From: Daphnia pulex
Taxonomy: Eukaryota > Arthropoda > Branchiopoda > Diplostraca > Daphniidae
Assembly: GCF_021134715.1 (NCBI RefSeq)
Contig: NC_060028.1
Location: 8,593,482 to 8,657,481, forward strand
Length of the DNA stretch: 64,000 nucleotides
Direction: 5' to 3'
The position numbers and the translations under genes were made by a program. This document shows, piece by piece, positions 6,001 through 62,560 of this stretch (position 1 is the first letter of the stretch; the number at the start of each line of letters is the position of its first letter). The notes under the pieces were generated by a model that searched no databases, was not told where the DNA came from, and saw only the letters and a program-made list of their open reading frames with translations.

Positions 6001-9000
6001 GTACAGTCACTTTGCAGCGGAGGTGATACGATCCCTACAGCACATCCATCAAGTCCTATATACTATGCGATGGCTAAAATAATCTAATTGCTCGTATCTT
6101 CACTTGAAAGTTGTTTTAAGTGACTGGCAGCTCTCCGTTTCGCTATAGGCAACGTAAAGGTCCCTCCCCCTCTTCCAGCTGGCAGCTGAACAACCGACTC
6201 TGTTTGCGTCTCGCCCTTGTTATAAGTTTATGGACAGTGGGTCATCTTCTGCCAAGCCAAACAAAGAAAATCCCTGCTCGTGCTCTACATATCTATTGAT
6301 TTACGTCATTACGCAATGACGAATTCATAGAGAATAAACCGCACATGCGAGGAGGGACATGGTCAAAAGAGTTTTTCGCTTGGATAATCTTCAAAGTTTA
6401 TCGTTTGCGCATGAGCTTTAGCCGTCGTCGCAACACGCCAAGTTCTCCGGCTCCTAATTATTATTATAGACCGCGGTGGATGGGGGAGAAGTTGTCGTTA
6501 AATCCAGGTGAAACTTTTTTTTGGGGGGAGGTTTCTCGACAGCCACTTTTGCCGACGAACAAACCGAGTTTTTAATATTACACAACGGTCGCCGTTGATT
6601 AAAATTATACCGTGAAAGCGGCTGAAAAAAAAAAGTTTGGTACCGAAACGTAATCCAATGCGAATCATTTATTACGACCGTGGTTCTTTGTATAAAGTTG
6701 TCTTGTTTTTATGATGACAAAAGAAGTTTTCTCGGCTGGCGAACACTTCCTTCCGGCCTTGCTCCTTGCAGCTACTAAGGAAATGCCAGAAGACAACGAA
6801 ATTATTCATTATGTGTCTAGTTTTGGCGAAGCATCAGCAGCAGAGCGCTGGGATCGCGATCCATACACACGTGGCGGATATGTACAGAATCCCAGAACAA
6901 TTTCCCAGAGTTTACCTATGGAGTACACGTTCCCTGGCCGCCCGCCCCCAGTTGCATTATTGTAATTTGTACTTGAGGAGAGCCCTATGATGTCCCAAAA
7001 TTTGATGTTGCTGAGTTATACAATGAAAAGGGAGAATGGCATCAGCAGAGAATGAGATTATTATTGTTATGTGTGGCCTCCTTGATGTAATGGAAAAGAT
7101 ATACACACACACACACACACGGAGTAGCAGAGGGGGTGGGTTGTGTACATACTCTCCTTTAGGCCGGCCTATTAGTTGTGTGTCCGCTCTCCTTTGAATT
7201 CAAACGAAGTCAGATTGGATGGCAACGCCCACTCACTAGGCCAGGAACCTTCAACGACAAGAGACTCTTGTTGTCTATTCAAGATGACAGTGTAATCCTG
7301 ATGCGCCTCTTTCTATGTTCCTAAAACAAACATAATAAGAGAGAAAATTGAAGAAATGGAGAAGGAGCTGCTCGAGAGTTTTGTTTTTCCACTCTCTGGT
7401 ACTTGTGTTACACTCGATGTAAAACTCTTGAATCGGTTGACGTGTGCGTAGCAATCACGACGGCAAATGTCTGACGAAAACAGTGGCTTACGCAGATCGT
7501 GTAACTCGATGCTAATGATGCAAACGATATCCAAAAATGGAGCAACGTTTCGTCTCTGATTCAATATTTATTGTTGACATCGTTATCAGACGCGTTGTTC
7601 CAACCTGTTTGGGTGTTATTCACAAGTCATACGTGGAAGGATCCCCCCCCCTACCATTTATCGGTGAAAATCGTCAACCGTTTCCAGTGACATCCAATAA
7701 CGATCGGCTTACACGGAGGCTAATTATTACCTGCACGCGCCTACACGTACGAAATATAGGCGAAACATTTGAATTTCTATTATTCCTTTTCCCTTTTTTT
7801 TTTGTTTTTTTCTATTTGAAATAATTACTTGTTATGTAGTTAAACAGAGCATCTGCTGGGATACAGCTGAGAACTCTACATGGGAACTTGGATGTGCAAC
7901 TTATCCGGTACTCCCCTGAAGTTTCGGTTAATACGACGCATTTTTTTTTTTAAACAATTGGTCGCTTGTTTTGCTGATTTCCTATCCCTTTAGACACGCT
8001 TGTTTTCCTCCAAAATGTGTCTGGCGAGAGTATTTTTACAAGACAAGTCCAGCGTGACAAATGTGTACGTTTCCGTCGCTGGAATCCCGAATGTCCAGCA
8101 GTTATCGATTTCGACGTGTGCAAAAGTGTATTCCTTTCCGATATGATTTCTGTATTTCTTTTGCTTCGTGATCCTGGCATCTTATTCTGCGCTGTTCTTC
8201 TCTTTACGTAATATCAATAAGATCCCTCACGCTCCTTCTTCTTGTCTTCCAGCTGACGGTGCAGCGCCGGAGCAGCAGACCGAGTCTATTTGAGATCGTT
8301 GATATGATTTATGTATTAGATCCTTTTTTTTTATTTTATTTTCTTTTCTCTCTTGTTCGCCCTTTTACAGGCCGTGTATCACTCGATACATAGACGGGCC
8401 AAAGACTAGGCCGATTGTATGTTTTAGAAATGAACTCGCACGGTTCAATCACTTTTCACTCTCTTGTGAGATCCGAACCCGTCGGTGAGAGCGTCGATTT
8501 TATGTTTTTCTCTCGTCTTTTGAGTCGACATGCACCGCTCGATTCCCCTCCAACTTGAAATGGACAAATACGTGAACGTGACGTGTCCGACTTGTCCGCC
8601 ATCGACTGTCAAAGAGAAACGGTCGAAATGCGCCATTTGGAATCCGTGCAAATCTCCGGCTGTCGACGTTCTTATTCGTCCGGCCTTTTTTTTTTTTTTT
8701 CGAAAAAAACCAAACGTGAGTGAGCCCAGTTGGCAGCCACCAACCAAGGCCGCGTATGTTGGGTTGCATTGTATTCGACATGTTGAACGAAGCTTCCAGT
8801 TGCTACACACTCGAAAACATCTATAAATATCTGGCGCCCCGCTCCCGCCATTCCCGCCGATCCCGCGAGATTCACTCTGCGCAAAAAAGCGATGGGGGCG
8901 GGTTGCGGGGACTTGGAACAAACCTAATGGCCTTCGCACGCACATCAGGATGTGCTCCTGCTCCCGAGGGAGAGGTATGCGGTGTCGACTTGGCTGGCTG

Positions 9001-34805: not shown

Positions 34806-38838
<4,033 letters not shown>

Positions 38839-39526: not shown

Positions 39527-43973
<4,447 letters not shown>

Positions 43974-46029: not shown

Positions 46030-47775
46030 ATATTCTTATCTGTGGGTTTTATACTTTTCTTTTCTCTTCGTAGGTATACCGTAACTAATGACGTTTTTAC
46101 AACATCTGGCACTTGACATTTTCATCAGCCAGGACAATGCTGTTGAATGAATCAGTAATTGGAAACTAGATACGGTAGTCATAGATAGTTCAGAAAAAAA
46201 ACTTTAGTTTCCTTTTCCTGTTCCCAAATTGAATTATTTCGGATGAGATCAGAATTCGCAGTTATTGGTGTGTACTCATGATCAACATTTGATCAAATGT
46301 TGCACATATTTTTGTCGCAAAACCCACGTTATGTGAACTGCTTTTTACAATGGCACGATGAGATGTTATTCAGGGGCTCATAAGTTATAATATTATGATA
46401 AGTAAAAAGTAAATTTAAAAAATTTAAAAAAAAAATTTTTTCCTCCAGCGGTGGCGCGGGGTCAATTTTCCTACCAGGGGGGGGGGGCATTAGGTTGAAC
46501 TAGACTTACTATTAATAATTGGGAATTTTTCCCAAGTGAAGATTCTTTTGTAAAATATGTGATATTGTTCAAAGTAGTTTTGAGGGACTGTTTTTATGCC
46601 TGTCATTATGTTATGTGATATAAGACATCTGCTTCTTAATATTAATTTCTTTATGTTTTATTATTTTAACAGTCTCTGAGTATGAGCGTCAGCCAGTAAC
46701 CAGTATTGGTGAGAGGTGTGAACAAGACAGCTGTTGCATTCAGTTTGTGGTGCTGCCATTATTATCCTTGAATGTGTTGGTTATTCTGACCAATATCTTT
46801 AAGCATCCAACACAGAAACCAGAAAAAATAAAAAAAAAAATTAATTACATGTTTATCAATTTCTAATGGAGAAAGCTACAGATTAAGTAAATGGGAGACC
46901 AGCATTCAGTAGAAAAGTCTAATAATCCATTGTATTTAGGCAACATCCATGGTATTTAACAACGACTGCAATGTAGATCTCTACGAATAAGTTTCTAATA
47001 GGGAGGAATTTCAAACGATCGTTAAAGTTGAGATAGAAGAAGATAACGGCTCGATACAATCAAATCAAAGAAAGACAAAACCAGAGGAGAGACGCCGCAA
47101 ATGTTACTTGTCGCACAAGTTGTGGTGATGGTGTCGCGTTTTGATGTCAAGGTGTCGTTAAATTACATTCTGACTTGTCTACACCGACTTCGAGATTCTT
47201 TGCCATTTCCAATCGGAATGATCAGTTTAGGTAAGTCAACGTTTACTAGACCATGTAAACTTTTGCTCTACCACAAATGAGTCGCACTGCCCAATGTCGG
47301 ATGTTACATTTGCTTCTGTGTTTGTACTTTTTTTTCCAGTTGAGTTTTTACGGTGAAAATTTAGCCACGGTTTGATTTTGAAAAGTGATGAGGTATTTCC
47401 ACACCATTCGACCAAGCTTAATCGAAAGTGAACAATTCTAAGGCATGTAAGTGAATCGCTGGAGTTTTGACTTTTCGAAAGATCAACTTTTTAATCTACT
47501 TCAATTTATTTTGTGAAAGCATGCCGAAAATCTTTTGCCTTTCTCCACGTGATCGCTGCCGTGTCATGACGATGCTTCTTTGAGAGGGTCTCTATACTAT
47601 ATTGCAAGACAAAAACGTGTTGAGAACAGGAAATCTGAGTTGATTATAATGTACTGTATTTTTAAGATAAATCAAGTAGGTAAGTATATTGGCAATATTG
47701 CTTACATTTTAGTCTACGTATATGAGCCTAAGAGTCGTACACTCGTACGTTTCTTTAGAATTAAAAAAAAAAAAT
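46030..47775. other. Intergenic region outside the left arm of the inverted repeat
   Basis: No gene is recognised. A G-rich stretch lies at about 46477-46489. A short segment near 46711-46760 resembles, on the other strand, part of the sequence at 51690-51735 inside the inverted repeat (shared words CTGTCTT, TCACACC, TCACCA in order). The left border of the inverted repeat, at 47776, follows a poly-A run. Confidence 0.45.
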
Positions 47776-47859
47776 TGTATATTTTCAACATGTTCCAAGT
47801 GATGCAGTATTTATTTATCATTTTTCAATTACCATTGTAGAGTTCAACCTGCAGACGGG

Positions 47860-48180
47860 CCGGCCAGTTTGCATGTCCTTCACGCTTGAAGGTCACGGTG
47901 AAAATTACGTGTAAAACTGTCAATGCGGTGGTGTAGAGGTTGGGTGAGAAAGGTACGTGTTTCATCATTATCAAACAGATAAAATACCCGCAAGGCTCAG
48001 CTATTTGGTATTCATTTTGATATTTGTTGTTGTAGACCCATCCCCAGCAACGCCAACCTAAAGAAGGAAAGGCCAGTTTGCATTTCCTTCGCGCTTGAAG
48101 GTCATGGAGATCATTACATAAAACGTATCATGCGACGGCGGAGAGGTTGGGTGAGAAAGGTACGTGTTTCATCATTATCA
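47860..48180 (+). repeat. Two tandem ~210-bp units upstream of the first Tyr-rich gene
   Basis: Units starting near 47860 and 48070 share the order CCAGTTTGCAT, CTTGAAGGTCA, GAGGTTGGGTGAGAAAGGTACGTG and CATCATTATCAAA. Each contains TGAAGGTCA (47887-47895 and 48097-48105), which fits the extended nuclear-receptor half-site TNAAGGTCA. They lie about 370 and 160 bp before the predicted transcription start, so they may be regulatory. One frame is also open (RPVCISFALEGHG), so a coding remnant is not excluded. Mirror copies lie at about 60052-60372, and a diverged third relative at about 61900-61975. Confidence 0.6.
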
Positions 48181-48231
48181 AATAGGTACAATAGCCGCAA
48201 GGCTTAAGAGGTGAGGGTGATCAAAAAATCG

Positions 48232-48267
48232 TATAAAAAGGAGAGAGAAAAGGCCAGAGACATCAGT
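48232..48267 (+). promoter_or_regulatory. TATA box and initiator of the first Tyr-rich gene
   Basis: TATAAAAA (48232-48239) is followed about 30 bp later by an arthropod initiator, TCAGTC (48263-48268). This is a canonical core promoter. The mirror copy is at 59965-60000 on the minus strand. Confidence 0.7.
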
Positions 48268-49318
48268 CGAGTGAGCATCTCCGACACGGCAACAACTGCT
48301 GTGGCCTATCTGTCACCATCTGCCTTCTTCACCGTATTGCCAGTTCACATCCATGGGTAAATATTGTCTTTTTTACATTGAGATTGGTAGCAATCCTACT
48401 TTTTTCTTTATGTATGCCTGTTATTATTTAATATTTACGTTTGAATGTGTTTAATGTCTAGTTAATAAGGCGTCATATGCTGTTGGGTGTTGTATCGTTG
48501 ATGGCTGGGTCGACCACTGGTGTACCGATGTCTCCTGGGTATGGTGGAAACCAAACCGCAACGCCGCCGCCTTACTACCCAAAAGCAACTTACGCAACGA
48601 CCAGTTACTGCACCGAGGTCTACAAGTACTACACTACTAAGGCACCGGAGTTTTATACCACAACTTACGCTGCCCCGACCCACTACAATGACGCCCTGAA
48701 GTATTACTCTGCCCCGAGTTACTACACCACGAAGGCGACGGAGTGCTACATGACTACGCATGCTGCCACATCCTACTACACGAGGCTCCCAAGTATTACT
48801 CTGTTCTCAGATACTTATTGCACCGATTTTCCTAAATACTATTCTGTTCCCAGCTGCTACACCGAGGCTCCCGCTGATTACTCCACCAAAACGGTCGAGT
48901 ACTTCACCGAAGCGGCAAAGTACTTCTCTGCCCCGATCTACGCAATCACAACTGAGGCGGCCAAGTATTACGCAGTCCCCACTTAGTGTACAGAAGCTGC
49001 TCTTTCGTGCTACGTTGAACAGAAATACTACACTGATGCTCCAGTTCACTACACCACGACCTACGCTACACCACAGCCCCCAAGTACTACACAGGAGAAA
49101 CCGTCTATTACACAACAACGTATGCTGCCTAGTTTACTACACCGATGCTCCCAAGTACTACATCACTAAGGCACCGGATTTCTACACTTGATGTATGCTG
49201 CCCCTGCCTACTACACCGAGGCCCCGCATTACTACAACACTGAAGCGCTCAAGTACTACACCACAACCTACGCTGCCCCGAGCTACTACACCTACGTCCC
49301 GAAGTATTACTGTGCGTA
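48263..49318 (+). pseudogene. Tyrosine-rich repeat secreted-protein gene Y1, disrupted
   Basis: Exon 1 ends ATGG|GTAAAT at 48356; exon 2 probably starts at 48462. The hydrophobic leader (LLGVVSLMAGSTTG) is in a different frame from that ATG, so translation could start only at an internal ATG (48477), giving 169 residues up to a TAG at 48984-48986. Beyond the stop, repeats continue in fragments to AVPKYYCA-like sequence ending at 49318. The body is built of Tyr/Thr/Ala/Pro units such as YYTTKAPEFYTTTYAAP and KYYSAPSYYTTKA. Proteins of this kind suggest an extracellular structural role (cuticle, egg case or adhesive, possibly tyrosine cross-linked); this is inference. Several shifts and a stop make a functional full-length product unlikely. 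Confidence 0.6.
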
Positions 49319-49411
49319 AAAGGTGTCGTTAAAAAAAAAGAAGTCGTGCCCGAACTGCAGTGCCCTATCTGTCACCAACTGCATTCCTCATCGTGTAACC
49401 GATTTGCAATT

Positions 49412-50099
49412 ATGGGTAAATATTCTTATTTTTACATTGAGTTTTGTACCAATTCTATTTTTTTTCTATTTGTTAATATGCCTGTTAATGTTTAATATTA
49501 ATGTTTAAATGTATTTACTCTTACTGTTTAGGCAACTATGGTGTCGTGCTCCTGTTGGGTGTTGTATCGTTGATGGCTGGGTTGACCGCTGGTGTAGCGA
49601 TGTCTCCTTGGTATGGCGGAAATCAAACCGCAACGCCGTCGCCTACCTACACAACTTACGCAACGACCAGTACTGCACCGAGGTCTTCAAGTACTACACT
49701 ACTAAGGTATCGGAGTTTTATACCACAACTTACGCTGCCCCGAGCCACTACACTGACGCCCTGAAGTATTACTCTGCCCCGAGTTACTACACCACCAAGG
49801 CGACGGAGTGCTACATGACTACGCATGCTGCCCCATCCTCCGAGGCTCATGCACCGAGGCTCCTAAGTATTGCTTTGTTCTCATCTACTTATTGCACCGA
49901 TTTTCCTAAATACTCCTCTGTTCCCAGCTGCTACACCGAGGCTCCCGCCGATTACCACACCGAAGCTTCAAAGTACTACTCTGCCCCGATCTACACAACC
50001 ATAACTGAGGCGGCCAATTATTACGCTGTCCCGACTTGCTGCACAGAAGCTGCACTTTCGTACTACGTTGAACAGAAATACTACACTGATTATCGTTGA
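49412..50099 (+). pseudogene. Tyrosine-rich repeat gene Y2, frameshifted and 3'-truncated
   Basis: Exon 1 (ATG 49412, donor after 49415) joins exon 2 at 49532 in frame. This gives an intact signal peptide, MGNYGVVLLLGVVSLMAG, then a mature start AMSPWYGGNQTATPSP. At about 49672 one base is missing (AGTACTGC where paralogue Y3 has AGTTCCTGC), and the repeat body (YCTEVFKYYTTKVSEFYTTTYAAP onwards) continues in the next frame. The gene is cut at about 50095 by the deletion that fuses it to Y3. The same frameshift is in the right-arm copy, so it predates the inverted duplication. Confidence 0.6.
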
Positions 50100-50874
50100 T
50101 GGCTGGGTCGACTGCTGGTGTAGCGATGTCTCCTTGGTATGGCGAAAACCAAACCGTAACGCCGCCGCCTTCCTACTCAACTTACGCAATGACCAGTTCC
50201 TGCACCGATGTCTTCAAGTACTACACCACCAAACCACGGGAGTTTTATACCACAACTTACGCTGCCCCGAGCCACTACACTGATGCCCTGAAGTATTACT
50301 CTGCCCTGAGTTACTACACCATCTAGGCGACGGATGACACCACATGACTACGTATACTGCCTATCCTATACACCGAGGCTTCTAAGTATAACTTTGTTAT
50401 CAGCTACTTATTGCACCGATTTTCCTAAATACTATTCTGTTCCCAGCTGCTTTACCGAGGCTCCCGCTGATGTCTCCACCAAGACGGTCGAATACTACAC
50501 TGAAGCGACAAAGTACTACTCTGCCCCGATCTACATAACCACAACTGAGGCGGCCAAGTATTACGCAGTCCCGACTTGCTACACCAAAGCTGCTCTTTCG
50601 TGCTGCGTCGAACAGAGATACTACACTGATGCTCCAGTCTACTACACCACGACCTACGCTACACCTAGCTACAACACCGCAGACCCCAAGTACTACACCG
50701 AAGAAGGCGTCCATACACAACTACGTACGCTGCCTAGCTTACTACATCGAGGAATTTAAGTATTACTCTCCTCCAAACTACTACCAAACTGAGGTTCATA
50801 TGTATTACATCAGCAATTCTCCCCACCTTGTCACCACTATTTACGCTACTCCGAGCTATATACCGAAGTTCTAA
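50096..50874 (+). pseudogene. Tyrosine-rich repeat gene Y3, 5'-truncated
   Basis: Only exon 2 sequence remains, starting inside the signal-peptide region (SLMAGSTAGVAMSPWYGENQT). Its frame stops at 50324-50326 after SALSYYTI. Repeats resume in another frame (PKYYSVPSCFTEAPADV, then KYYSAPIYITTTEAAKYYAVPTCYTKA) and end YATPSYIPKF at about 50874. Exon 1, the intron and the promoter seen in the right-arm copy are missing here. Confidence 0.6.
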
Positions 50875-51501
50875 AGTATTTTTTGTACGTGTTGAAAGAT
50901 TGTTGAAATACAAGATTGATTCATAAATCACAATTGCATGTCCATTTTCTCTTAAGTACCTTTCCTCCTGCTGATCATTGCGTGTTGCGAGAAAATATTT
51001 TTGAGTGCTGTGTAAACTTACAAAATAATCGATCTTGCAACATACCAACAATAAAAATTCAAACTCCTGTTTTACATTTCATAAACATCAACTTCTTTTT
51101 TATAAATTTTTTTCTATCATTAAAATTCAAAGTCCAACTTTTCTAAAAATTCAAAGTCCACACACCTATTATTTCTGCTAAGTCCAGACTTTTCTTTTTG
51201 AAAAAAAATTTAAAAAAATTCCCCTTACACAAAGTTTTGAAAAAATTATCGCGAAAAAATTTAACTCGAATATTTTATTGTATGCAAAATTTATTTTTAT
51301 AATATACATGCATCATATACATTTTTCCTGTGGCCCCCAGGGGGGGGGGCCTGTCGCTTTCTCTACCGCGATAATAACATGATGCAAGTTATATGCAAGT
51401 TATTATTTGTTTGGCGCAGAAAGCTTATTTTATCTAGCAGTTCTCGACTGTGTCAAACCTGACATTGATCAGGTTGCCTCAGTCGTATACTGCATGATTG
51501 A

Positions 51502-51744
51502 ATGAAAACTCAAAAGACAACATATCAAACTTTTAACGCAGCAACACAAAATATCACTGGCAGAGCAATTTCATATGGCATGGATGAAAACGACAACACA
51601 AAAATTTTTGAAGTCAGGAACCCAGATGGAACAGCTCAGCTGCAACAGCACAGCAACTTCTGGATTGAACTGCAACCGCATGCTCCATACAATGGTTCAA
51701 TCTGTCTTCGTCACACCTTTCACCATTTGGCTGCAACAAGGTAA
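51502..51744 (+). CDS. Unknown short frame in the left arm (mirror at 56063-56305)
   Basis: An 80-codon frame reads MKTQKTTYQTFNAATQNITG, later NPDGTAQLQQHSNFWIELQPH and HTFHHLAATR. It ends near a possible donor (ACAAG|GTAACC), so it might be one exon of a larger gene. I recognise no family. Similar short sequence occurs in the spacer near 55188-55225 and, faintly, near 46711-46760, so it may be part of a dispersed repeat. Confidence 0.3.
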   Translation: MKTQKTTYQTFNAATQNITGRAISYGMDENDNTKIFEVRNPDGTAQLQQHSNFWIELQPHAPYNGSICLRHTFHHLAATR

Positions 51745-52037
51745 CCACCACCAGCGTTAAAGAAGTGTTTGTTATATCTGTTTAAGAAAAGAAAATTATT
51801 TTCGAGAAACACAACTCTAAAATGCATACTCATTATAACAAAAGAATACAAAGAGTACAGAAAACTACGCAGTCCAACAGAATAACTTTGATAACTGATT
51901 CAAAATTTCTATAGTAGCAGAGCAAATTGGTCTACTCTCTAGTCATGTTAACTAAATCTGTACTTTTGAAAGACATTTGATCAAAATAATTACTTATTGC
52001 TGTTACGGTAAAAGTCTATTTTACCCGACCAACTTCT

Positions 52038-52311
52038 TACTTTACTTTACTTATCTAATTCACTTTACTTTACTTAATCTAGAAAAGTAACTAACTAAGC
52101 GGGAATGAGCCCGAGCGTAGCGAGGAAATACAGGGGTTTTGGGTGGGTATAATAAAGTATAATAAAGCATCAAACCATACTTCATTATACTTTACTATAC
52201 TATAACCAAAAACAACTATATTTTTACGGTATGCTCGGGCTTATTCCCGCTTAGTTACTTATCTAGATTAAGTAAAGCAAAGTGAATTAGATAGGTAAAG
52301 TAAAAATACCA
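52038..52311. repeat. Palindrome inside the transposon
   Basis: About 80 bp at 52038-52121 (including TAATCTAG and AAGCGGGAAT, then AGCCCGAGC) recur inverted at 52229-52311, separated by about 107 bp of AT-rich DNA. This subterminal hairpin could be a remnant of a nested foldback element or a transposase-binding structure. Confidence 0.7.
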
Positions 52312-52920
52312 CTTACTTTATTTACTTAAAGGTAATCCAATTGCCGCAATACAAAACGAACTTAACAGCACAACTCTATGTCCCTTATTAAGGAATCAAC
52401 ATGATTTCTTCGTAAAATCAAATCCCAAATTCTGCAGTTAAGATGGCGAGTTTTTGGTTTCACGAACAATCTGTGATACACTTCTGAGTCGTTATTAGCT
52501 ACAAAAAGTCTAGTCAAAATACGCCCGTCTAATTCCTGAGATGTTGCACTACCACCGTCAAAAATCAAACTAATTCAGGTGTCGTCTGCTACGGAAATTC
52601 TCAGACGTTGCATGCATCACAATTTGAGCCATACTTATACTTTGAATATTAAAATTTTATTTGATAAGTTTTCCACGCAACACATGATAAACTTAGATAT
52701 GAAAGTAAATTTTTTATCAATGTGCAGTGTTTGGCAATGAATCGCAGTAAAAATGTTTTTTTTGTGGGGGGGAGACCCCCCCAACCCCCCCTTTTTTTTA
52801 TTTTTATGCAGATTGTCCCCCAAAAGCCCACCATTTCAACTTACGCTTTTTACGCTAAATGATTTGTTAACGAAAACAGCCAACAAACATCGAAATTTTT
52901 CAGCCATATTATACTTATTA

Positions 52921-52967
52921 TAACCTAACCTAACCTAACCTAACCTAACCTAACCTAACCTAACCTA
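52921..52967 (+). repeat. Interstitial arthropod telomere repeat (TAACC/CCTAA)n
   Basis: Nine uninterrupted TAACC units, equal to (CCTAA)n, the complement of the arthropod telomere repeat TTAGG. The run lies in the middle of the transposon, so it moved with the element or was inserted into it. Confidence 0.9.
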
Positions 52968-53180
52968 CTATACTTTACTTTATCTTATAAGGATACATGA
53001 AACGTCAAAATCATAATAATAAAGTAAAGTAAAGTAAAGTATCTTCATCATGATATAATATAGTAAAGTTCCATGACCTTTATATGAATAATAAAGTATA
53101 GTAATATAAAGTAACAATTTGATTGCCACTTACAAGTTGTTATTAATACAGTAAAGTTTATAATGATTTGATGATATTTT

Positions 53181-53251
53181 CATCGATCGTGGATTTGAAC
53201 CACCAACCATTATGTTAGAATTCTATTGCTATACCACAGCGCTAATCGACA
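53181..53251 (-). tRNA. tRNA-like sequence, copy 1 (probably a pseudogene)
   Basis: Read on the minus strand it has a D-arm-like TAGCGCTGTGGTATAGC and a B-box GGTTCAAATCC. The GTGG/CCAC T-stem pairs, and the acceptor ends pair over 5-6 bp (GTCGAT with ATCGAT). The anticodon stem does not pair, so it is probably not functional. It lies inside the transposon. Confidence 0.35.
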
Positions 53252-53460
53252 CTTCCTCGATACGCAAAATGTTTTAATAACATTTACAGTTATATCATAA
53301 TAAAGTGCACTGTAATAATTTGAATAAAGCTGTATTTATATGGCACAATGAACTTCATAATAAAGTAGGATAAAATAATATAACGTTAAAATAAAAAGTA
53401 AAGTAATTCTTGATTGACCCTTACTTTAAAATTAAAAAAAATTTAATTTATATATTTCAC

Positions 53461-53529
53461 CTGATCTCGGATTTGAACCACTGAGCCATGAATTTGTAAT
53501 CCAGTGCTATACCACAGAGCTAATCGACA
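53461..53529 (-). tRNA. tRNA-like sequence, copy 2 (probably a pseudogene)
   Basis: It is related to copy 1, 280 bp away and in the same orientation. TAGCTCTGTGGTATAGC fits an A box and GGTTCAAATCC a B box. The anticodon stem pairs at four of five positions around TTACAAA (anticodon ACA if read normally), but the T-stem is broken. It may be tRNA-derived SINE material captured by the element. Confidence 0.35.
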
Positions 53530-54211
53530 TTGCTTCGATGTGAAAATAAATAAAATAAATAATATTTCACTATTATGTATTAATTATGAATTTTTGGCAA
53601 CAGTGTTTTAATAATATTGACAGGATGCCAGTCTGCTACACGGTAGGGAACAGAGAGGTTGTACGTGAAATTTCTCGTATTTAAGTAAAGTGAAGTAAAG
53701 TAAAGTGAAGTGAAGTAAAGTGTAAATTAAGTGAGTGTGTAGTAATAATTGAGAATTAAGGAAAAAATTAAGTATAATAAAGTAAAAATTAAGTAGAATT
53801 AAGTAAGGTTTTGGTCGGCTAAAATAGACTTTAACCGCTGTTACATGGGATGAGACGGTACGTCTAAGAACAGGCACCGAGACACACGAGGCACGCCATT
53901 TCGGAAATGTACAGGCACTTCCAAGTCTGATTTGAATGATTTGGCAACTTGGTTTTTACGTGCTAAATCACCTGTAAATTTTCACATCAACATATTACAT
54001 TCAATAGCAATAGGAAATTAACAATAAATACCTTTTAATTTTCATCGTGAGAAACGTCACAACCAACAACCCATCTCTGCTGCGTCTTGGATCAAAATGG
54101 CCGCTTAGCGTCCCCGAAGAGATTCGCGCCACCTGGTGGACATCAATTCAGCCACTTATTCACAGCCATTAGACTCCTGTTCCAAATGAGTAATGACTGA
54201 ACGCAACGGCT

Positions 54212-55440
54212 TTGAGTTCTACTGTCGTTTGAGTTCTACTGTCGCACACAAAGAAATTTTAAAAATTATTTCAAATATTGTGGTTCTATTGTCGATGGAG
54301 TTCTTCTGTCTTTTGACTTTTGAGTTGTACGGTCGCCATACCAAAGTAAATTGCGTTATGGACTTGGGGTGTCAGAGGTGTCCAATAGATGGCGTTTCAT
54401 GTGATGGCGGATTGTTGTATCAGTGTTTGTCAAAAGTTTTCCTGTTTTTCCATGAAAATTACCGATGAATTCATCAGTAAATTCAAGTTCTTTTCTGTGC
54501 AACTTGTTTGCGATGTTATTTATTCTTATGTGTGCTGGATCAAATTAAAAATTCCTCAATCTTACCTGCAGGAAGGAACGGGAAAGGACAGTAGCATACA
54601 AGCAGCCTAACATCACTACCACCATCTCTTTTATTAAAAATCTTCGTTCTGCTGAATGCATCATGCAGTCAAAACAGGTAAAAACAATAATGTCTTAGTC
54701 ACAATTTTTGTAAATACTTGTTCCCAGACTTAGTTAATATTCGTCTAATTATCAGCAGTTTCTATTGATCTTGGTAGGTCACTACCCCAGTGTGGACATG
54801 TTTGTTTTTCTGAACATGTTTTTCAACAAACAATTCATTGACGTACAAGTATTATTCTTCTTTCGGTTGTAAACTGTTATTTGATGTCATAGATTGTATT
54901 TTCTATCATGGGGAATAATATGAAAAATATCATTTCATCTAGGCCATGGGTAATCTTCAGGTCTTTGCAGCAGCTTAAGAGAAGAATATGAACAAATGCA
55001 GGGCAACTTACCAACATGTGTTGTATTTTTCTGAATGTTAAACACGAGCAGTAGGTAGCCATTAACTTTAGTTTATTGGATGAATGTTGGAATATTTATT
55101 GACATATTTACTTTAGATTCAACATGACTAACTGTTGGATGCCAAAGTTAGTTGGAACTCAACTCACTGTACATACTCTAACACAGATAACTCTGGTGAT
55201 GTTGCCTTACAGCCACATGCAGGAAAATGATTGTTTTCTTCAGAAAATTGTAAGTTTAATTTTTTTCTTGACCACCAACACTTTCTGTTAATATTATAGA
55301 TTTTTATGTTGAAAGAGTTACAAAGTCTGAAAAGCTAACTTCATTCTTCATGGTTTAACTTCATGGTGTTCATGCTCATTTGATTCATTTCGTGCCAGCT
55401 AGTGAAAGCCGAAAGGCATGTCGAATGTCGAATTCAATCC
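54212..55440. other. Spacer of the inverted repeat
   Basis: 1,229 bp of non-palindromic sequence. TTGAGTTCTACTGTCG occurs as a short tandem pair at about 54212-54244. Two blocks have splice-like borders (54572-54677 and 55117-55249), but their frames cannot be joined without a stop. The second contains DNSGDVALQPHAGK, reminiscent of IELQPHAPYNGS in the arm frame at 51502. No functional gene is supported. Confidence 0.5.
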
Positions 55441-56062
55441 AGCCGTTGCGTTCAGTCATTTGGAACAGGAGTCTAATGGCTGTGAATAAGTGGCTGAAAT
55501 GATGTCCACCAGGTGGCGCGAATCTCTTCGGGGACGCTAAGCGGCCATTTTGATCCAAGACGCAGCAGAGATGGGTTGTTGGTTGTGACGTTTCTCACGA
55601 TGAAAATTAAAAGGTATTTATTGTTAATTTCCTATTGCTATTGAATGTAATATGTTGATGTGAAAATTTACAGGTGATTTAGCACGTAAAAACCAAGTTG
55701 CCAAATCATTCAAATCAGACTTGGAAGTGCCTGTACATTTCCGAAATGGCGTGCCTCGTGTGTCTCGGTGCCTGTTCTTAGACGTACCGTCTCATCCCAT
55801 GTAACAGCAATAAGTAATTATTTTGATCAAATGTCTTTCAAAAGTACAGATTTAGTTAACATGACTAGAGAGTAGACCAATTTGCTCTGCTACTATAGAA
55901 ATTTTGAATCAGTTATCAAAGTTATTCTGTTGGACTGCGTAGTTTTCTGTACTCTTTGTATTCTTTTGTTATAATGAGTATGCATTTTAGAGTTGTGTTT
56001 CTCGAAAATAATTTTCTTTTCTTAAACAGATATAACAAACACTTCTTTAACGCTGGTGGTGG

Positions 56063-56305
56063 TTACCTTGTTGCAGCCAAATGGTGAAAGGTGTGACGAA
56101 GACAGATTGAACCATTGTATGGAGCATGCGGTTGCAGTTCAATCCAGAAGTTGCTGTGCTGTTGCAGCTGAGCTGTTCCATCTGGGTTCCTGACTTCAAA
56201 AATTTTTGTGTTGTCGTTTTCATCCATGCCATATGAAATTGCTCTGCCAGTGATATTTTGTGTTGCTGCGTTAAAAGTTTGATATGTTGTCTTTTGAGTT
56301 TTCAT
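56063..56305 (-). CDS. Unknown short frame in the right arm (mirror of 51502-51744)
   Basis: The translation is identical to the left-arm frame (MKTQKTTYQTFNAATQNITG onwards). The same uncertainty applies; it may be an exon or repeat fragment. Confidence 0.3.
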   Translation of the reverse strand: MKTQKTTYQTFNAATQNITGRAISYGMDENDNTKIFEVRNPDGTAQLQQHSNFWIELQPHAPYNGSICLRHTFHHLAATR

Positions 56306-56932
56306 TCAATCATGCAGTATACGACTGAGGCAACCTGATCAATGTCAGGTTTGACACAGTCGAGAACTGCTAGATAAAATAAGCTTTCTGCGCCAAACAA
56401 ATAATAACTTGCATATAACTTGCATCATGTTATTATCGCGGTAGAGAAAGCGACAGGCCCCCCCCCCTGGGGGCCACAGGAAAAATGTATATGATGCATG
56501 TATATTATAAAAATAAATTTTGCATACAATAAAATATTCGAGTTAAATTTTTTCGCGATAATTTTTTCAAAACTTTGTGTAAGGGGAATTTTTTTAAATT
56601 TTTTTTCAAAAAGAAAAGTCTGGACTTAGCAGAAATAATAGGTGTGTGGACTTTGAATTTTTAGAAAAGTTGGACTTTGAATTTTAATGATAGAAAAAAA
56701 TTTATAAAAAAGAAGTTGATGTTTATGAAATGTAAAACAGGAGTTTGAATTTTTATTGTTGGTATGTTGCAAGATCGATTATTTTGTAAGTTTACACAGC
56801 ACTCAAAAATATTTTCTCGCAACACGCAATGATCAGCAGGAGGAAAGGTACTTAAGAGAAAATGGACATGCAATTGTGATTTATGAATCAATCTTGTATT
56901 TCAACAATCTTTCAACACGTACAAAAAATACT

Positions 56933-57780
56933 TTAGAACTTCGGTATATAGCTCGGAGTAGCGTAAATAGTGGTGACAAGGTGGGGAGAATTGCTGATGT
57001 AATACATATGAACCTCAGTTTGGTAGTAGTTTGGAGGAGAGTAATACTTAAATTCCTCGATGTAGTAAGCTAGGCAGCGTACGTAGTTGTGTATGGACGC
57101 CTTCTTCGGTGTAGTACTTGGGGTCTGCGGTGTTGTAGCTAGGTGTAGCGTAGGTCGTGGTGTAGTAGACTGGAGCATCAGTGTAGTATCTCTGTTCGAC
57201 GCAGCACGAAAGAGCAGCTTTGGTGTAGCAAGTCGGGACTGCGTAATACTTGGCCGCCTCAGTTGTGGTTATGTAGATCGGGGCAGAGTAGTACTTTGTC
57301 GCTTCAGTGTAGTATTCGACCGTCTTGGTGGAGACATCAGCGGGAGCCTCGGTAAAGCAGCTGGGAACAGAATAGTATTTAGGAAAATCGGTGCAATAAG
57401 TAGCTGATAACAAAGTTATACTTAGAAGCCTCGGTGTATAGGATAGGCAGTATACGTAGTCATGTGGTGTCATCCGTCGCCTAGATGGTGTAGTAACTCA
57501 GGGCAGAGTAATACTTCAGGGCATCAGTGTAGTGGCTCGGGGCAGCGTAAGTTGTGGTATAAAACTCCCGTGGTTTGGTGGTGTAGTACTTGAAGACATC
57601 GGTGCAGGAACTGGTCATTGCGTAAGTTGAGTAGGAAGGCGGCGGCGTTACGGTTTGGTTTTCGCCATACCAAGGAGACATCGCTACACCAGCAGTCGAC
57701 CCAGCCATCAACGATAGCTACAACATAGAAAAAAATATAATTGATACAAAACTCATATAAAAATAAGAATATTTACCCAT
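56933..57780 (-). pseudogene. Tyrosine-rich repeat gene Y3, right-arm copy with exon 1
   Basis: Exon 1 survives here (ATG at 57780, ATGG|GTAAAT), and a canonical acceptor (TTGTAG) precedes exon 2 at 57717. The join puts the leader in the wrong frame, and the segment corresponding to NYGVVLLLGVV of Y2 is missing, so no signal peptide is made. The repeat body stops at 57481 and resumes in another frame to 56933, as in the left copy. Confidence 0.6.
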
Positions 57781-57864
57781 AATTGCGAATCGGTTACGAG
57801 GAGAGCAGTTGGTGACAGATAGGGCACTGCAGTTCGGGCACTTCTTTTTTTTTTAAGACTCCTT

Positions 57865-58820
57865 TTACGCACAGTAATACTTCAGGACGTGGGTGTAGTA
57901 GCTCGGGGAAACGCAGGTTGTAGTGTAGTACTTGAGCGCTTCAGTGTTGTAGTAACGCGGGGCCTCGGCGTAGTAGGAAGGGGTAGCATACATAGACGTG
58001 CAGAATTCCGGTGCCTTAGTGATGTAGTACTTGGAGCCTCGGTGTAGTAAACTAGGCAGCATACGTTGTTGTAGGCGGCTTCTCCGGTGTAGTACTTGGG
58101 GGCTGCGGTGTAGCATAGGTCGTGGTGTAGTGAACTGGAGCATCAGTGTAGTATTTCTGTTCAACGTAGTACGAAAGTGCAGCTTCTGTGCAGCAAGTCG
58201 GGACAGCGTAATAATTGGCCGCCTCAGTTATGGTTGTGTAGATCGGGGCAGAGTAGTACTTTGAAGCTTCGGTGTGGTAATCGGCGGGAGCCTCGGTGTA
58301 GCAGCTGGGAACAGAGGAGTATTTAGGAAAATCGGTGCAATAAGTAGATGAGAACAAAGCAATACTTAGGAGCCTCGGTGCATGAGCCTCGGAGGATGGG
58401 GCAGCATGCGTAGTCATGTAGCACTCCGTCGCCTTGGTGGTGTAGTAACTCGGGGCAGAGTAATACTTCAGGGCGTCAGTGTAGTGGCTCGGGGCAGCGT
58501 AAGTTGTGGTATAAAACTCCGATACCTTAGTAGTGTAGTACTTGAAGACCTCGGTGCAGTACTGGTCGTTGCGTAAGTTGTGTAGGTAGGCGACGGCGTT
58601 GCGGTTTGATTTCCGCCATACCAAGGAGACATCGCTACACCAGCGGTCAACCCAGCCATCAACGATACAACACCCAACAGGAGCACGACACCATAGTTGC
58701 CTAAACAGTAAGAGTAAATACATTTAAACATTAATATTAAACATTAACAGGCATATTAACAAATAGAAAAAAAATAGAATTGGTACAAAACTCAATGTAA
58801 AAATAAGAATATTTACCCAT
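57865..58820 (-). pseudogene. Tyrosine-rich repeat gene Y2, right-arm copy with full 3' end
   Basis: Exon 1 ATG at 58820 and exon 2 from 58700 give the same intact signal peptide and the same one-base frameshift as the left copy. Here the 3' half is retained: VEQKYYTDAPVHYTTTYATP, then KYYITKAPEFCTSMYATP, SYYAEAPRYYNTEALKYYTTT and a terminal YTHVLKYYCA with stop at 57865. A further frame change separates these last units from the main repeat body. Confidence 0.6.
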
Positions 58821-58913
58821 AATTGCAAATCGGTTACACGATGAGGAATGCAGTTGGTGACAGATAGGGCACTGCAGTTCGGGCACGACTTCTTTTTTTT
58901 TAACGACACCTTT

Positions 58914-59969
58914 TACGCACAGTAATACTTCGGGACGTAGTTGTAGTAGCTCGGGGCAGCGTAGGTTGTGGTGTAGTACTTGAGCGCTTCAGTGTTGTAG
59001 TAATGCGGGGCCTCGGTGTAGTAGGCAGGGGCAGCATACATCAAGTGTAGAAATCCGGTGCCTTAGTGATGTAGTACTTGGGAGCATCGGTGTAGTAAAC
59101 TAGGCAGCATACGTTGTTGTGTAATAGACGGTTTCTCCTGTGTAGTACTTGGGGGCTGTGGTGTAGCGTAGGTCGTGGTGTAGTGAACTGGAGCATCAGT
59201 GTAGTATTTCTGTTCAACGTAGCACGAAAGAGCAGCTTCTGTACACTAAGTGGGGACTGCGTAATACTTGGCCGCCTCAGTTGTGATTGCGTAGATCGGG
59301 GCAGAGAAGTACTTTGCCGCTTCGGTGAAGTACTCGACCGTTTTGGTGGAGTAATCAGCGGGAGCCTCGGTGTAGCAGCTGGGAACAGAATAGTATTTAG
59401 GAAAATCGGTGCAATAAGTATCTGAGAACAGAGTAATACTTGGGAGCCTCGTGTAGTAGGATGTGGCAGCATGCGTAGTCATGTAGCACTCCGTCGCCTT
59501 CGTGGTGTAGTAACTCGGGGCAGAGTAATACTTCAGGGCGTCATTGTAGTGGGTCGGGGCAGCGTAAGTTGTGGTATAAAACTCCGGTGCCTTAGTAGTG
59601 TAGTACTTGTAGACCTCGGTGCAGTAACTGGTCGTTGCGTAAGTTGCTTTTGGGTAGTAAGGCGGCGGCGTTGCGGTTTGGTTTCCACCATACCCAGGAG
59701 ACATCGGTACACCAGTGGTCGACCCAGCCATCAACGATACAACACCCAACAGCATATGACGCCTTATTAACTAGACATTAAACACATTCAAACGTAAATA
59801 TTAAATAATAACAGGCATACATAAAGAAAAAAGTAGGATTGCTACCAATCTCAATGTAAAAAAGACAATATTTACCCATGGATGTGAACTGGCAATACGG
59901 TGAAGAAGGCAGATGGTGACAGATAGGCCACAGCAGTTGTTGCCGTGTCGGAGATGCTCACTCGACTGA
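58914..59969 (-). pseudogene. Tyrosine-rich repeat gene Y1, right-arm copy
   Basis: The mirror of the left-arm Y1 with the same leader frame problem, the same 169-codon frame (59246-59755) and the same premature TAG. The promoter elements are also mirrored (TATA near 59993-60000). Confidence 0.6.
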
Positions 59970-60506
59970 TGTCTCTGGCCTTTTCTCTCTCCTTTTTATA
60001 CGATTTTTTGATCACCCTCACCTCTTAAGCCTTGCGGCTATTGTACCTATTTGATAATGATGAAACACGTACCTTTCTCACCCAACCTCTCCGCCGTCGC
60101 ATGATACGTTTTATGTAATGATCTCCATGACCTTCAAGCGCGAAGGAAATGCAAACTGGCCTTTCCTTCTTTAGGTTGGCGTTGCTGGGGATGGGTCTAC
60201 AACAACAAATATCAAAATGAATACCAAATAGCTGAGCCTTGCGGGTATTTTATCTGTTTGATAATGATGAAACACGTACCTTTCTCACCCAACCTCTACA
60301 CCACCGCATTGACAGTTTTACACGTAATTTTCACCGTGACCTTCAAGCGTGAAGGACATGCAAACTGGCCGGCCCGTCTGCAGGTTGAACTCTACAATGG
60401 TAATTGAAAAATGATAAATAAATACTGCATCACTTGGAACATGTTGAAAATATACAGTACCTCCGCATACAAAGGATCGCCATAGCCGTGGGTACTTAGT
60501 ACTTAC

Positions 60507-61514
60507 CACGGCTGTCATGGAACTGGCTGCTAGGCCAGAACCGGAGCCACTTTTGTTGAGATCCGAATGAAAACGTGCCAAACCAAAATCGGCCAAAACA
60601 GCTCGTACGACTTTTCCTTCGTCATCCCGTTGCAGTAAAACATTGGTGGATTTCACGTCACGGTGGACCATAACTGAACCGCCCGGCTCCTGCTGAGTGG
60701 AATGCTGCTGAGTAGATGGAGAGCCTCGCGATGAGATGGCGAGCGATCAGCATAATTTGATTCACGTCTAATTTGAATTTGCTGTTTTTTGCTTGGCCAC
60801 CGAAAAGACAGTCGAAAAGAGTCCCTCCGTTGGCGAATTCAAAGATGAGCGAGACTCTAATCGATGCGTCACCATCACTCGATTCGTTATCCATGCAAAG
60901 ACCAAGCAGTCCAATAATATTGCGGTGCTGGACAGCTGAAAGGGCTTCAACCTCTTGTTGAATCATCTTGGCGAACGATCGAGCCTCAACGACCGTGCTG
61001 CAACGTCAAGGAGAGCGGATTTCTTTGACGGCTACTTGACGTCCATGCCAAGTTCCTTTGCACACTTGACCGAATCCTCCACGCCCAATCGGCTCCTGAT
61101 AGTTGTCGGTTATCTTTCCAATGCGACGACGGCTGACAACGACAGCTCCGGTTGAGGCGATCACATTGCTCAATCGGACTTGCAGAAGATCAATTTCAAT
61201 CAGAATTTTAGAAAAGATAGAAGATGAGGTAGGAGGATTGTTTTCAGGAACACACAAAGTTCGGCTTTTTGCTCCAGTGGAAATAGCTGCAGATATCGAT
61301 TTGTCGATGACGACCTGCTGGCTCTTAATGCCAATGGGAGGACAGCCTGTTTGGCTTTGGCTTCCTGCAAACTAATCTCCAATTCCTGAATCTTCTTCTG
61401 TAGTTCCAGCATCCGCCATCGATCTTGTGAATCTCTTTCTTGTGAATCCAAACGTTCCACTGGCTCCGGTTGATTGATTTGTGAAGGCGGTGAAGCGGGC
61501 ACAGGCACAAACAT
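60507..61514 (-). pseudogene. Protein kinase pseudogene (Ser/Thr or TKL type) with coiled-coil N-part
   Basis: Minus strand. A coiled-coil-like segment (LELQKKIQELEISLQEAKAK) precedes a kinase domain. The domain has the glycine loop IGRGGFGQVCKGTWHGRQ, VAVKE with the ATP lysine, an alpha-C helix EARSFAKMIQQEVEALS, catalytic HRDVKSTNVLL and DFGLARF. Lesions are a two-base shift at a TGTGTG run between the coiled coil and the kinase (about 61250), a TGA stop after VAVKEIRSP (about 61007), and at least two shifts between ARHL and VMVHRD (60680-60740). The last exon ends at a good donor (60507), but the expected APE segment and C-lobe are not found; the inverted repeat begins 50 bp further on. 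The lesions make it non-functional as read; the subfamily is uncertain. Confidence 0.75.
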
Positions 61515-61519
61515 AGGTG

Positions 61520-62560
61520 ATGCGAAGATATTTTAATAGCTTGTGATTGTTGATGATGTGACCGAATATCCCGATGGAACACATTCGCGTTCTAAAAGAA
61601 AATTAAATGTTATGAAATATAACAGAACTATGTGCCAAGAGCAGTAAACGAGAAACGAATGGAATATAAATAGTGTGCTATAAATTAAACCATTAAAAAT
61701 CTATCCAACCCAACGTTTAAAATGAAGACAAAAAATATCGCATGATCGATGTAAACTCTCCCTTACAGCCATTCAAATTTTTAAAGTTTCTAAAAAGGTG
61801 TCATAGTAAAAATGCAATACCAGACAAGCAGATACTCTAATAATGTTATCCACGAAAACTATTACCAAATCCCTGAGTCACAACACTAGGAAGGAAGAGC
61901 AACCTCTCCGCCGTGGCATCATGACACGTTTTACGTAATGATTTACGTGACCTGCGAGTGTGAAGGATATAGAATATATCATGGTGTGCTGGTTTGGAGT
62001 ATGGCCTGGGGGCTGGTGTCCGGTGTTCGAATGACCGCATGCCATTTCACCACCTAGTCGTTGATGAAAGTATTCGTATTCCAACGGCAATTTTCGATAA
62101 TCATAAGTATCCACAAGATTCTCTCAAGACGAAACGGGACACGGACACCTTTGGGGCTTGGGCTTATGGGGATTGGTCAAATTGATTGCGAACACATAGA
62201 GCTAACGATTTGATTATTACATCAGTAAGACAAATGAAGTTAATGAAGCAGTTTCCAAAGCAACTGCAAAAAAAAAGAGTATTTAAACAAAAATGTGTAA
62301 GATCTTAGTATTAAATAAGGTAAACCAATATCTACTTATTGCCTATTTAAATCAGTAAATTTTCATTAGTTGAAGAATAAAGAAACTGTTCTCAACATTT
62401 TTCAATTTGACCATTATTAGGTGAACACCAGCTGAAAATTACCACCTACTTTAGCTGATAACCAAACACTGTGAACCAAGTGCAAATACGCAGTGAAGCA
62501 TCAATTGGCGAAATATTTATTTACTGTCGTTTTCTGGAACACGGCATCTCCGTTTTCTAC
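61520..62560. other. Region between the kinase pseudogene and RBM19
   Basis: An open frame at 61878-62114 (minus) reads MDTYDYRKLPLEYEYFHQRL and later SISFTLAGHVNHYVKRVM. The second part is related to the terminal repeat units of the inverted repeat (SFALEGHGDHYIKRIM). It may be a decayed 5' exon of the kinase gene or just that repeat; no complete gene is seen. Confidence 0.4.

Follow-up and report, generated by a model that had tools for sequence, protein, structure and literature searches.

The stretch of Daphnia pulex DNA analysed here (64,000 nucleotides of contig NC_060028.1, hereafter the window) carries at 47776-60456 a large palindrome, in which a left arm on the forward strand (47776-54211; 6,436 bp, a 1,830-bp transposon included) and a right arm on the reverse strand (55441-60456; 5,016 bp) are separated by a spacer of 1.2 kb (54212-55440). 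Self-comparison of the sequence recovered the arm ends and the three indels named in a preliminary description of the locus, bearing out the palindrome itself as well as the claim that the 1,420-bp difference in arm length is the sum of 1,838 + 7 - 425 bp. Counting the substitutions between the aligned arms, which that description had proposed, gives 2 in 4,584 ungapped bp, distributed over three inverted blocks: 47776-50090 with 58142-60456 (2,315 bp, one substitution, at 49291), 50091-52006 with 55801-57716 (1,916 bp, none) and 53837-54189 with 55456-55808 (353 bp, one, at 54146). The 7-bp indel lies close to the inner edge of the arms (54185-54191, forward strand), and past this gap their likeness continues for some 20 bases, to ~54211/55441, the arm ends originally given. 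With such length and identity, a chance origin of the palindrome is excluded.

Two larger differences are specific to one arm. The 1,838-bp indel consists of a 1,830-bp DNA transposon (52007-53836), found in the left arm only, together with its 8-bp target duplication, GCTGTTAC, which stands at 51999-52006 and again at 53837-53844. This element, which contains a (TAACC)n array at 52921-52967, has 11 full-length copies in the genome, the window copy counted, at 97-100% identity. The second difference is a 425-bp segment present in the right arm (57717-58141, reverse strand) and absent from the left at 50090/50091, which is best read as a putative deletion in the left arm, since at most of the loci examined the match runs unbroken from ~57720 to ~58820 or 58879 and so spans the right-arm version.

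The left arm holds three tandem copies of a repeat gene rich in Tyr, Thr, Pro and Ala, with YYTEAPKYY/TTYAAP-like motifs (48462-50759, forward strand), whose mirror copies occupy 57048-59770 on the reverse strand of the right arm. The copies examined are interrupted by stops and frame changes, apart from an open 223-aa frame in the middle right-arm gene (58052-58723). A working gene array is therefore not supported, nor is the doubled gene dosage suggested earlier, even though that one frame is open and a relative at C4:4497977/4506939 has a frame open over the whole match. A Pfam scan of eight window pieces returned nothing for the arm pieces save one weak match (E 0.05, below the cut-off), and no RNA families or tRNAs were found in the window. 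Selection on coding sequence is an unlikely cause of the identity of the arms, because the frames look broken and because 1,916 bp, much of it non-coding, carry no substitution.

The sequences on either side of the palindrome differ from each other, and both recur at other loci, where the junction with arm sequence falls on the same base. To the left lies what we call an A-type flank (46700-47775, forward strand), which at C5_8.30 and C5_9.10 also directly adjoins the arm, and to the right a B-type flank (60457-61667, reverse strand) contiguous with arm sequence at C10_2.46. The latter contains pieces of a protein-kinase-like gene in several frames, with introns and breaks not told apart; its best Pfam E value is 2e-5, all kinase matches falling below the curated cut-off. 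The outermost part of the arm, a 555-bp block (47776-48331, mirrored at 59901-60456), is common to A-type and B-type loci, and over this block C5_8.30 and C10_2.46 are 84% identical, their local alignment beginning exactly at 47776. Because 47776/60456 is the very base at which the two locus types part, we take the outer border to be set by homology and not by an accident of end-joining. No target duplication was seen there when the printed ends of the window were compared by eye, the flanking bases being different. Outside this 555-bp block, the match between the C10 half and the window arm is confined to short pieces, so that an old recombination between locus types at the outer block could be another source of the mixed flanks.

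This palindrome is one of many related ones in the genome. A protein search found copies of the gene relic of the arms in at least 66 clusters, of which 29 are inverted and convergent, none is divergent and 37 are confined to one strand (clusters built from 150 rows of 157 matches, with 150 of 1,857 first-look candidates scored); among the matches listed, related loci are spread over eleven numbered contigs. Ten palindromes of the family, that of the window among them, were read as sequence, and at all ten the arms of the same palindrome are sisters in the tree, the window arms being identical across 1,902 columns of the alignment. Within palindromes, the arms differ at no position per 1.5-1.9 kb in seven cases and at 1, 5 and 32 positions in the other three, and 1.7-8.0% separates them from their nearest copies at other loci, a range that excludes an unpaired copy and becomes 1.7-11.5% with it. 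The arms have evolved in concert, locus by locus.

The spacer tells of a longer history. Between 0.9 and 1.0 kb of its 1.2 kb also lies between the arms of C5_9.10, C5_9.29, C2_4.05 and C3_9.73, at 87-93% identity (99.6% in one 255-bp piece of C3_9.73); with 54412-55434 as the query, the genome yielded at least 51 matches (best 40 of 154 candidates scored). A homologous and equally placed spacer in four other palindromes indicates that the inverted layout predates the divergence of these loci. The arm ends vary between loci. At C2_4.05 some 0.7 kb of outer-arm sequence lacks any further scored match in the genome, from which it follows that arms also grow, or undergo inverted duplication, locally, and at C4_4.45 the inverted partner is only ~75-87% identical, so not every inverted pair has been homogenised.

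Layout was also typed at related families, for 40 of 114, 17 of 21 and 16 of 102 matches, these rows including one mis-paired C10 kinase pair (2672645-/2688018+). Gene families of this genome do not all share the inverted layout, as in a control family of cuticle genes equal-score neighbours within 15 kb are direct in 23 cases and inverted in 1 (150 listed rows), a coarse comparison in which the score is that of a 66-position domain. For GH7, inspection by eye of 30 rows found no opposite-strand neighbours within 15 kb.

Differences between arms are concentrated at the arm edges. In nine palindromes, 147 of 163 substitutions fall no more than 750 bp from a visible edge, a limit set after the positions had been seen, where 37 would be expected from an even distribution. 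A shuffle of the mean distance to the edge, which makes no use of this limit, gives p < 0.01 for seven of the eight testable palindromes; the palindrome of the window, with two substitutions, is not significant (p = 0.12). Edge strips have diverged by ~7% in C5_9.10, ~9% in C5_9.29 and ~13% in C2_3.81, while the pooled interiors hold 16 substitutions in 36.5 kb, or near 0.04%, their length being that of the left arms with the window transposon included in the denominator. These counts use the best BLAST piece only, a 94-bp arm piece of C2_1.21 past a 3-kb insertion being uncounted; neither the C6 palindrome nor C12_9.82 (0 substitutions in 3,922 bp) enters the edge count, and the visible edges exclude the outer edges of C5_8.30, C5_9.10 and C5_9.29. 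No sign of GC-biased conversion was seen in a crude comparison, core GC spanning 0.389-0.403 in the palindromic copies and 0.389-0.404 in the single ones.

The window palindrome has the look of a fresh duplication, but its halves probably stem from an old inverted duplication and keep being copied over each other. We consider it highly probable that it belongs to a family of old autosomal palindromes dispersed in the genome, the arms of which are kept near-identical by intrachromosomal arm-to-arm gene conversion, a process we infer from one assembly. Inverted copies some 1.2 kb apart could pair within a single chromatid or across sister chromatids, after which a break in one arm would be repaired from the other. 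Conversion tracts would homogenise the interior and stop where homology ends, which is the spacer on the inner side and the junction with the A-type or B-type flank on the outer, so that a new change in an arm would survive just until another tract passed over it; the 425-bp deletion and the transposon of the left arm would be differences not (yet) erased. The pathway of repair, the cell type it acts in, its direction and rate are parts of this account that we infer. Gene conversion was one of three options offered in the preliminary description, and it is favoured by the sister arms at all ten palindromes, the position of the differences at arm edges and the coincidence of the outer border with a homology border. 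C12_9.82 and C2_1.21 count against it, as they have a common centre structure and yet stand apart in the arm tree.

The shared spacer and the single polarity of every inverted cluster listed also allow a different history, improbable in our judgement, in which copies of one ancestral palindrome reached many chromosomes by way of a hairpin or circular intermediate, the mirror arm being re-formed from the remaining half after partial loss, with flanking DNA taken in, and then kept perfect by gene conversion, which would make it self-spreading DNA. Less probable again is that every palindrome arose recently and on its own by inverted duplication, through template switching for instance, and that identity reflects youth only. 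Several arm pairs do have zero substitutions, and the unmatched ~0.7 kb in the outer arm of C2_4.05 implies that some arm growth is local. Against this, and against the very young origin put forward as another of the earlier options, stand the spacer held in common with four other palindromes at 87-93%, edge strips diverged by 7-13% beside near-zero interiors in three palindromes, a window border that is the homology border between two other loci, and one polarity in 29 of 29 inverted clusters (among the matches listed). 'Young' fits the last homogenisation only.

Three further readings we hold to be very unlikely. The first is an assembly artefact, through fold-back reads or the head-to-head joining of two haplotypes; on the latter, the caution of the preliminary description was reasonable. 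A mis-join of this kind should leave the same flank on both sides, yet each side has a flank of its own, and both flanks run directly into arm sequence at independent loci; the arm-specific transposon with its target duplication speaks against it too, as does the recurrence of the layout at many related-family loci when cuticle-gene neighbours are overwhelmingly direct. A giant fold-back or long-TIR transposon, inserted as a unit with the arms as its terminal inverted repeats, would fit the dispersal over eleven contigs, the common centre and the one polarity seen among the matches listed; it is opposed by the lack of a target duplication (by eye) at 47776/60456 and of fixed termini between loci, the two grounds on which we reject a transposon unit, and further by flanks that belong to longer homologous blocks elsewhere, by the 37 of 66 listed clusters on one strand only, and by the Pfam matches of the eight pieces scanned, among which there is no transposase. 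The third reading is of long hairpin-RNA loci, where read-through of the convergent relics would give dsRNA silencing intact relatives and selection for pairing would keep the arms matched. Hairpin-RNA loci as such have been described in Drosophila (accessible text of PMC10317233), and the inverted, convergent relics and the open-frame relative on C4 would suit this reading, but the arms resemble each other no less in their non-coding parts than in the gene relics.

Old palindromes homogenised by conversion would offer, in an animal that alternates clonal and sexual reproduction, many related loci over most chromosomes, for which the unpaired relatives supply internal controls. Each locus could serve as a replicate for measuring how fast conversion proceeds, how long its tracts are and how the edges decay, and Daphnia mutation-accumulation lines would allow these quantities to be tracked. 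Short-read variant calls and duplication dates are likely to be wrong at such loci of this model genome.

Arm-to-arm conversion is already known in other organisms, best of all from mammalian sex chromosomes, where it is often seen as a remedy for missing recombination and where palindrome arms are usually longer than the ~4-8 kb found here; to our knowledge, Daphnia has no sex chromosomes. The hsp70 genes at 87A of Drosophila form an inverted autosomal pair that gene conversion has homogenised; they are working genes at one locus, unlike the many loci with broken-looking genes in Daphnia.

The palindromes of the mammalian Y and X (human P6, PMC3723533; X palindromes, PMC8981503) are, in the accessible text of these reports, old and conversion-homogenised with arms more than 99% identical. 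The window arms are likewise inverted and more than 99% identical, whereas the Daphnia palindromes, with arms of ~4-8 kb, are apparently not tied to a sex chromosome, have many related loci in one genome and broken-looking genes, and show no difference in GC in the crude comparison made. Palindromes in the genomes of parthenogenetic invertebrates are described in the available portions of reports on Folsomia candida (PMC5490193) and Adineta vaga (PMC7953838). In the former, as far as that portion goes, a wide range of Ks is taken as evidence against concerted evolution, and D. pulex is one of three species omitted from the palindrome survey for lack of annotation. Our literature search, with most subscription journals outside its reach and novelty therefore unproven, found no report on palindromes of a Daphnia genome among the titles and abstract openings listed, and the terms 'palindrom' and 'inverted' are absent from a study of Daphnia gene families (PMC12102780). 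Comparable too are the actively maintained inverted repeats of C. elegans and its relatives (PMC1803023, accessible text), in which layout is conserved while sequence diverges, the arms being alike within a species and less alike between species; that case comprises few examples followed across species, whereas Daphnia presents many loci of one family within a single genome.

The giant inverted repeat claimed for the window in a preliminary description is borne out as three ungapped inverted blocks, which together hold 2 substitutions in 4,584 bp: 47776-50090 pairs with 58142-60456 (one substitution), 50091-52006 with 55801-57716 (none) and 53837-54189 with 55456-55808 (one). Past the third block there is a 7-bp gap, after which similarity continues to about 54211/55441. 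A stretch of 425 bp kept in the right arm has no counterpart in the left arm at 50090/50091, and at most loci examined the match crosses the right-arm version of this region without a break. Only the left arm carries a 1,830-bp insertion (52007-53836), with inverted ends and a flanking 8-bp duplication, GCTGTTAC; since a genome search returned 11 full-length copies, the window's own included, at 97-100% identity, it is a young DNA transposon, the copy at C3:649965 scoring 3296 bits vs 3301 bits for the window's own. Inside it lies a 47-bp (TAACC)n array, whose repeat unit is that of arthropod telomeres. Outside the palindrome, the window also holds a direct duplicate of about 2.4 kb (35107-37513 and 39849-42240), in pieces 77-82% alike.

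The genome searched comprises 133,188,837 bases in 13 contigs; a GH7 cellulase exon from it agrees with PDB 4xnn, a Daphnia pulex protein, at 112 of 117 residues by visual count. Querying this genome with 1 kb of arm gave 114 matches. The best 40, nearly full-length, fall at 27 places; 13 of these are convergent pairs, all 13 of one polarity, and in most of them the two scores are the same or almost so. When the protein of a single gene copy was the query, 150 rows of matches formed 66 clusters (29 convergent inverted, none divergent and 37 on one strand), and at least one pair matched in score within 3% was present in 25 of the 29. Fifteen more loci of the family, named by contig and position in Mb, were read as sequence, together with half of one related locus on contig C10. 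Palindromes were found at nine of the 15 (C2_1.21, C2_3.81, C2_4.05, C3_9.73, C12_9.82, C5_8.05, C5_8.30, C5_9.10 and C5_9.29); at C2_0.79, C2_1.55, C2_2.06, C2_3.98, C4_1.44 and C4_4.45, no near-identical second gene unit turned up in the 20 kb read. A separate inverted repeat of 1.1 kb lies at C2_1.55, and C4_4.45 (L027/L028), with inverted partner pieces about 75-87% identical, is an inverted pair without homogenisation. For another family, located on C6 and C1, the 14 best rows make seven convergent pairs and the next two typed rows are unpaired; the one pair read as sequence (L035, C6:461700-469000) makes a palindrome at least 7.3 kb long (1-7255), 98.6% alike overall and lacking a spacer of note. 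The kinase-like sequence beside the window's right arm forms six inverted pairs on C10 and occurs at five more unpaired places, the window's own among them; these C10 pairs and the other six C6/C1 pairs were located by search coordinates only.

A tree was built from 26 arm cores, each 1.5-1.9 kb long, and in it the arms of every palindrome (10 of 10) group as sisters; over these cores they show no differences in seven palindromes and 1, 5 and 32 in the other three. Copies at other loci, even the nearest, differ from them by 1.7-8.0%; for the unpaired copy that stands most isolated the figure is 11.5%. Used as a query, the window's 1.2-kb spacer gave 51 matches, with 40 of 154 candidates scored. 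Between the arms of C5_9.10, C5_9.29, C2_4.05 and C3_9.73, 0.9-1.0 kb of this spacer has a homologue in the corresponding position, at 87-93% identity except for one 255-bp piece at 99.6%. On these comparisons, the layout of inverted copies appears to be old and the identity of their arms young. The loci are old on the scale of D. obtusa and D. pulex, given the silent-site divergence of 0.134 quoted in PMC12926508. At the mutation rates that the same paper gives for D. pulex (2.30-4.53 x 10^-9), the two differences in 4,584 bp would amount to about 48,000-95,000 generations from the time at which the window's arms were last made alike.

The left flank at 47776 is of one type (A), which at C5_8.30 and C5_9.10 also adjoins arm sequence directly, and the right flank at 60456 is of another (B), kinase-like and directly joined to arm sequence at C10_2.46. 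A local alignment of C5_8.30 and C10_2.46, both outside the window, has 84% identity and starts exactly at base 47776/60456, so the window's arms are alike up to the end of homology between its two sides, as homologous repair would predict. Because the C10 half matches the arm beyond its outer 555 bp in short pieces only, the right arm combines a B-type flank with a non-B-type interior. Such a combination is what conversion from the left arm would produce, and an ancient recombination event between the two types of locus within the outer 555-bp block would produce it too.

The arm interior would be a record of the last conversion between the arms, and the diverged edge strips appear to reflect the true age of the inverted copies, a strip taken up by exchange with another locus being an alternative source. 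In nine palindromes, 147 of 163 substitutions lie no more than 750 bp from a visible edge of an arm (37 expected), a limit picked once their positions were known; shuffling the mean edge distance, independently of that limit, gave p < 0.01 in seven of eight palindromes with at least two substitutions and p = 0.12 for the window's own two, values that are guides only, as positions within one palindrome are not independent. C2_3.81 has 52 substitutions in its outer 400 bp or so, 3 in the next 4.7 kb and 6 near the centre, and C5_9.10 has 51 of 53 in its inner 0.7 kb or so; C5_9.29 and C3_9.73 also show a strong effect, and C2_4.05 a weak one (5 of 12 near an edge). A recent inverted duplication, which had been put forward as the cause of the identity, predicts an even spread of differences and so fits poorly with the uneven one found. 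A mis-join of haplotypes, also proposed, or end joining, would hardly produce an outer border set by homology.

Besides being homogenised, the arms seem to grow both outward and inward, because about 0.7 kb in the outer part of the C2_4.05 arm matches nothing scored apart from that locus's own two arms (40 of 126 candidates scored), as if arms can take in locus-specific DNA, and because at C12_9.82 (L029) and C2_1.21 (L011/L012) part of the spacer now lies within both arms, giving a derived centre. These two loci share that centre, yet their arms group with different loci in the tree; this mismatch, together with the 255 bp of C3_9.73 (L024 1-339) that match the window's spacer (54924-55178) at 99.6%, beside about 92%, suggests exchange between loci, and the 255-bp piece is possibly a recent exchange between chromosomes.

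Each arm of the palindrome contains, in tandem, three copies of one Tyr/Thr/Pro/Ala-rich repeat-protein gene. The copies have stops and frame changes, several of these defects recurring at more than one locus, and the arm pieces scanned gave no Pfam match above cut-off. The middle copy in the right arm has an open frame of 223 aa. Some members of the family may still be genes, since a 263-aa frame is open over the whole match in the inverted pair C4:4497977+/4506939- (region 4497977-4507538). Doubled dosage, suggested earlier as what a real palindrome would bring, is not supported as a function of this one, given the stops and frame changes in its genes, though it may still play some part.

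Among the papers listed by the literature searches, none was seen to describe Daphnia palindromes, and a survey of parthenogenetic animals did not cover D. pulex because annotation was lacking (PMC7953838). Gene conversion from arm to arm is established in the palindromes of mammalian sex chromosomes (PMC3723533, PMC8981503), active maintenance has been argued for Caenorhabditis inverted repeats (PMC1803023), and Folsomia palindromes have been read as being without concerted evolution (PMC5490193). The mechanism in Daphnia would be of an already known kind; what is new here is how many related loci there are, how they are spread over eleven contigs, and that unpaired relatives can serve as controls.
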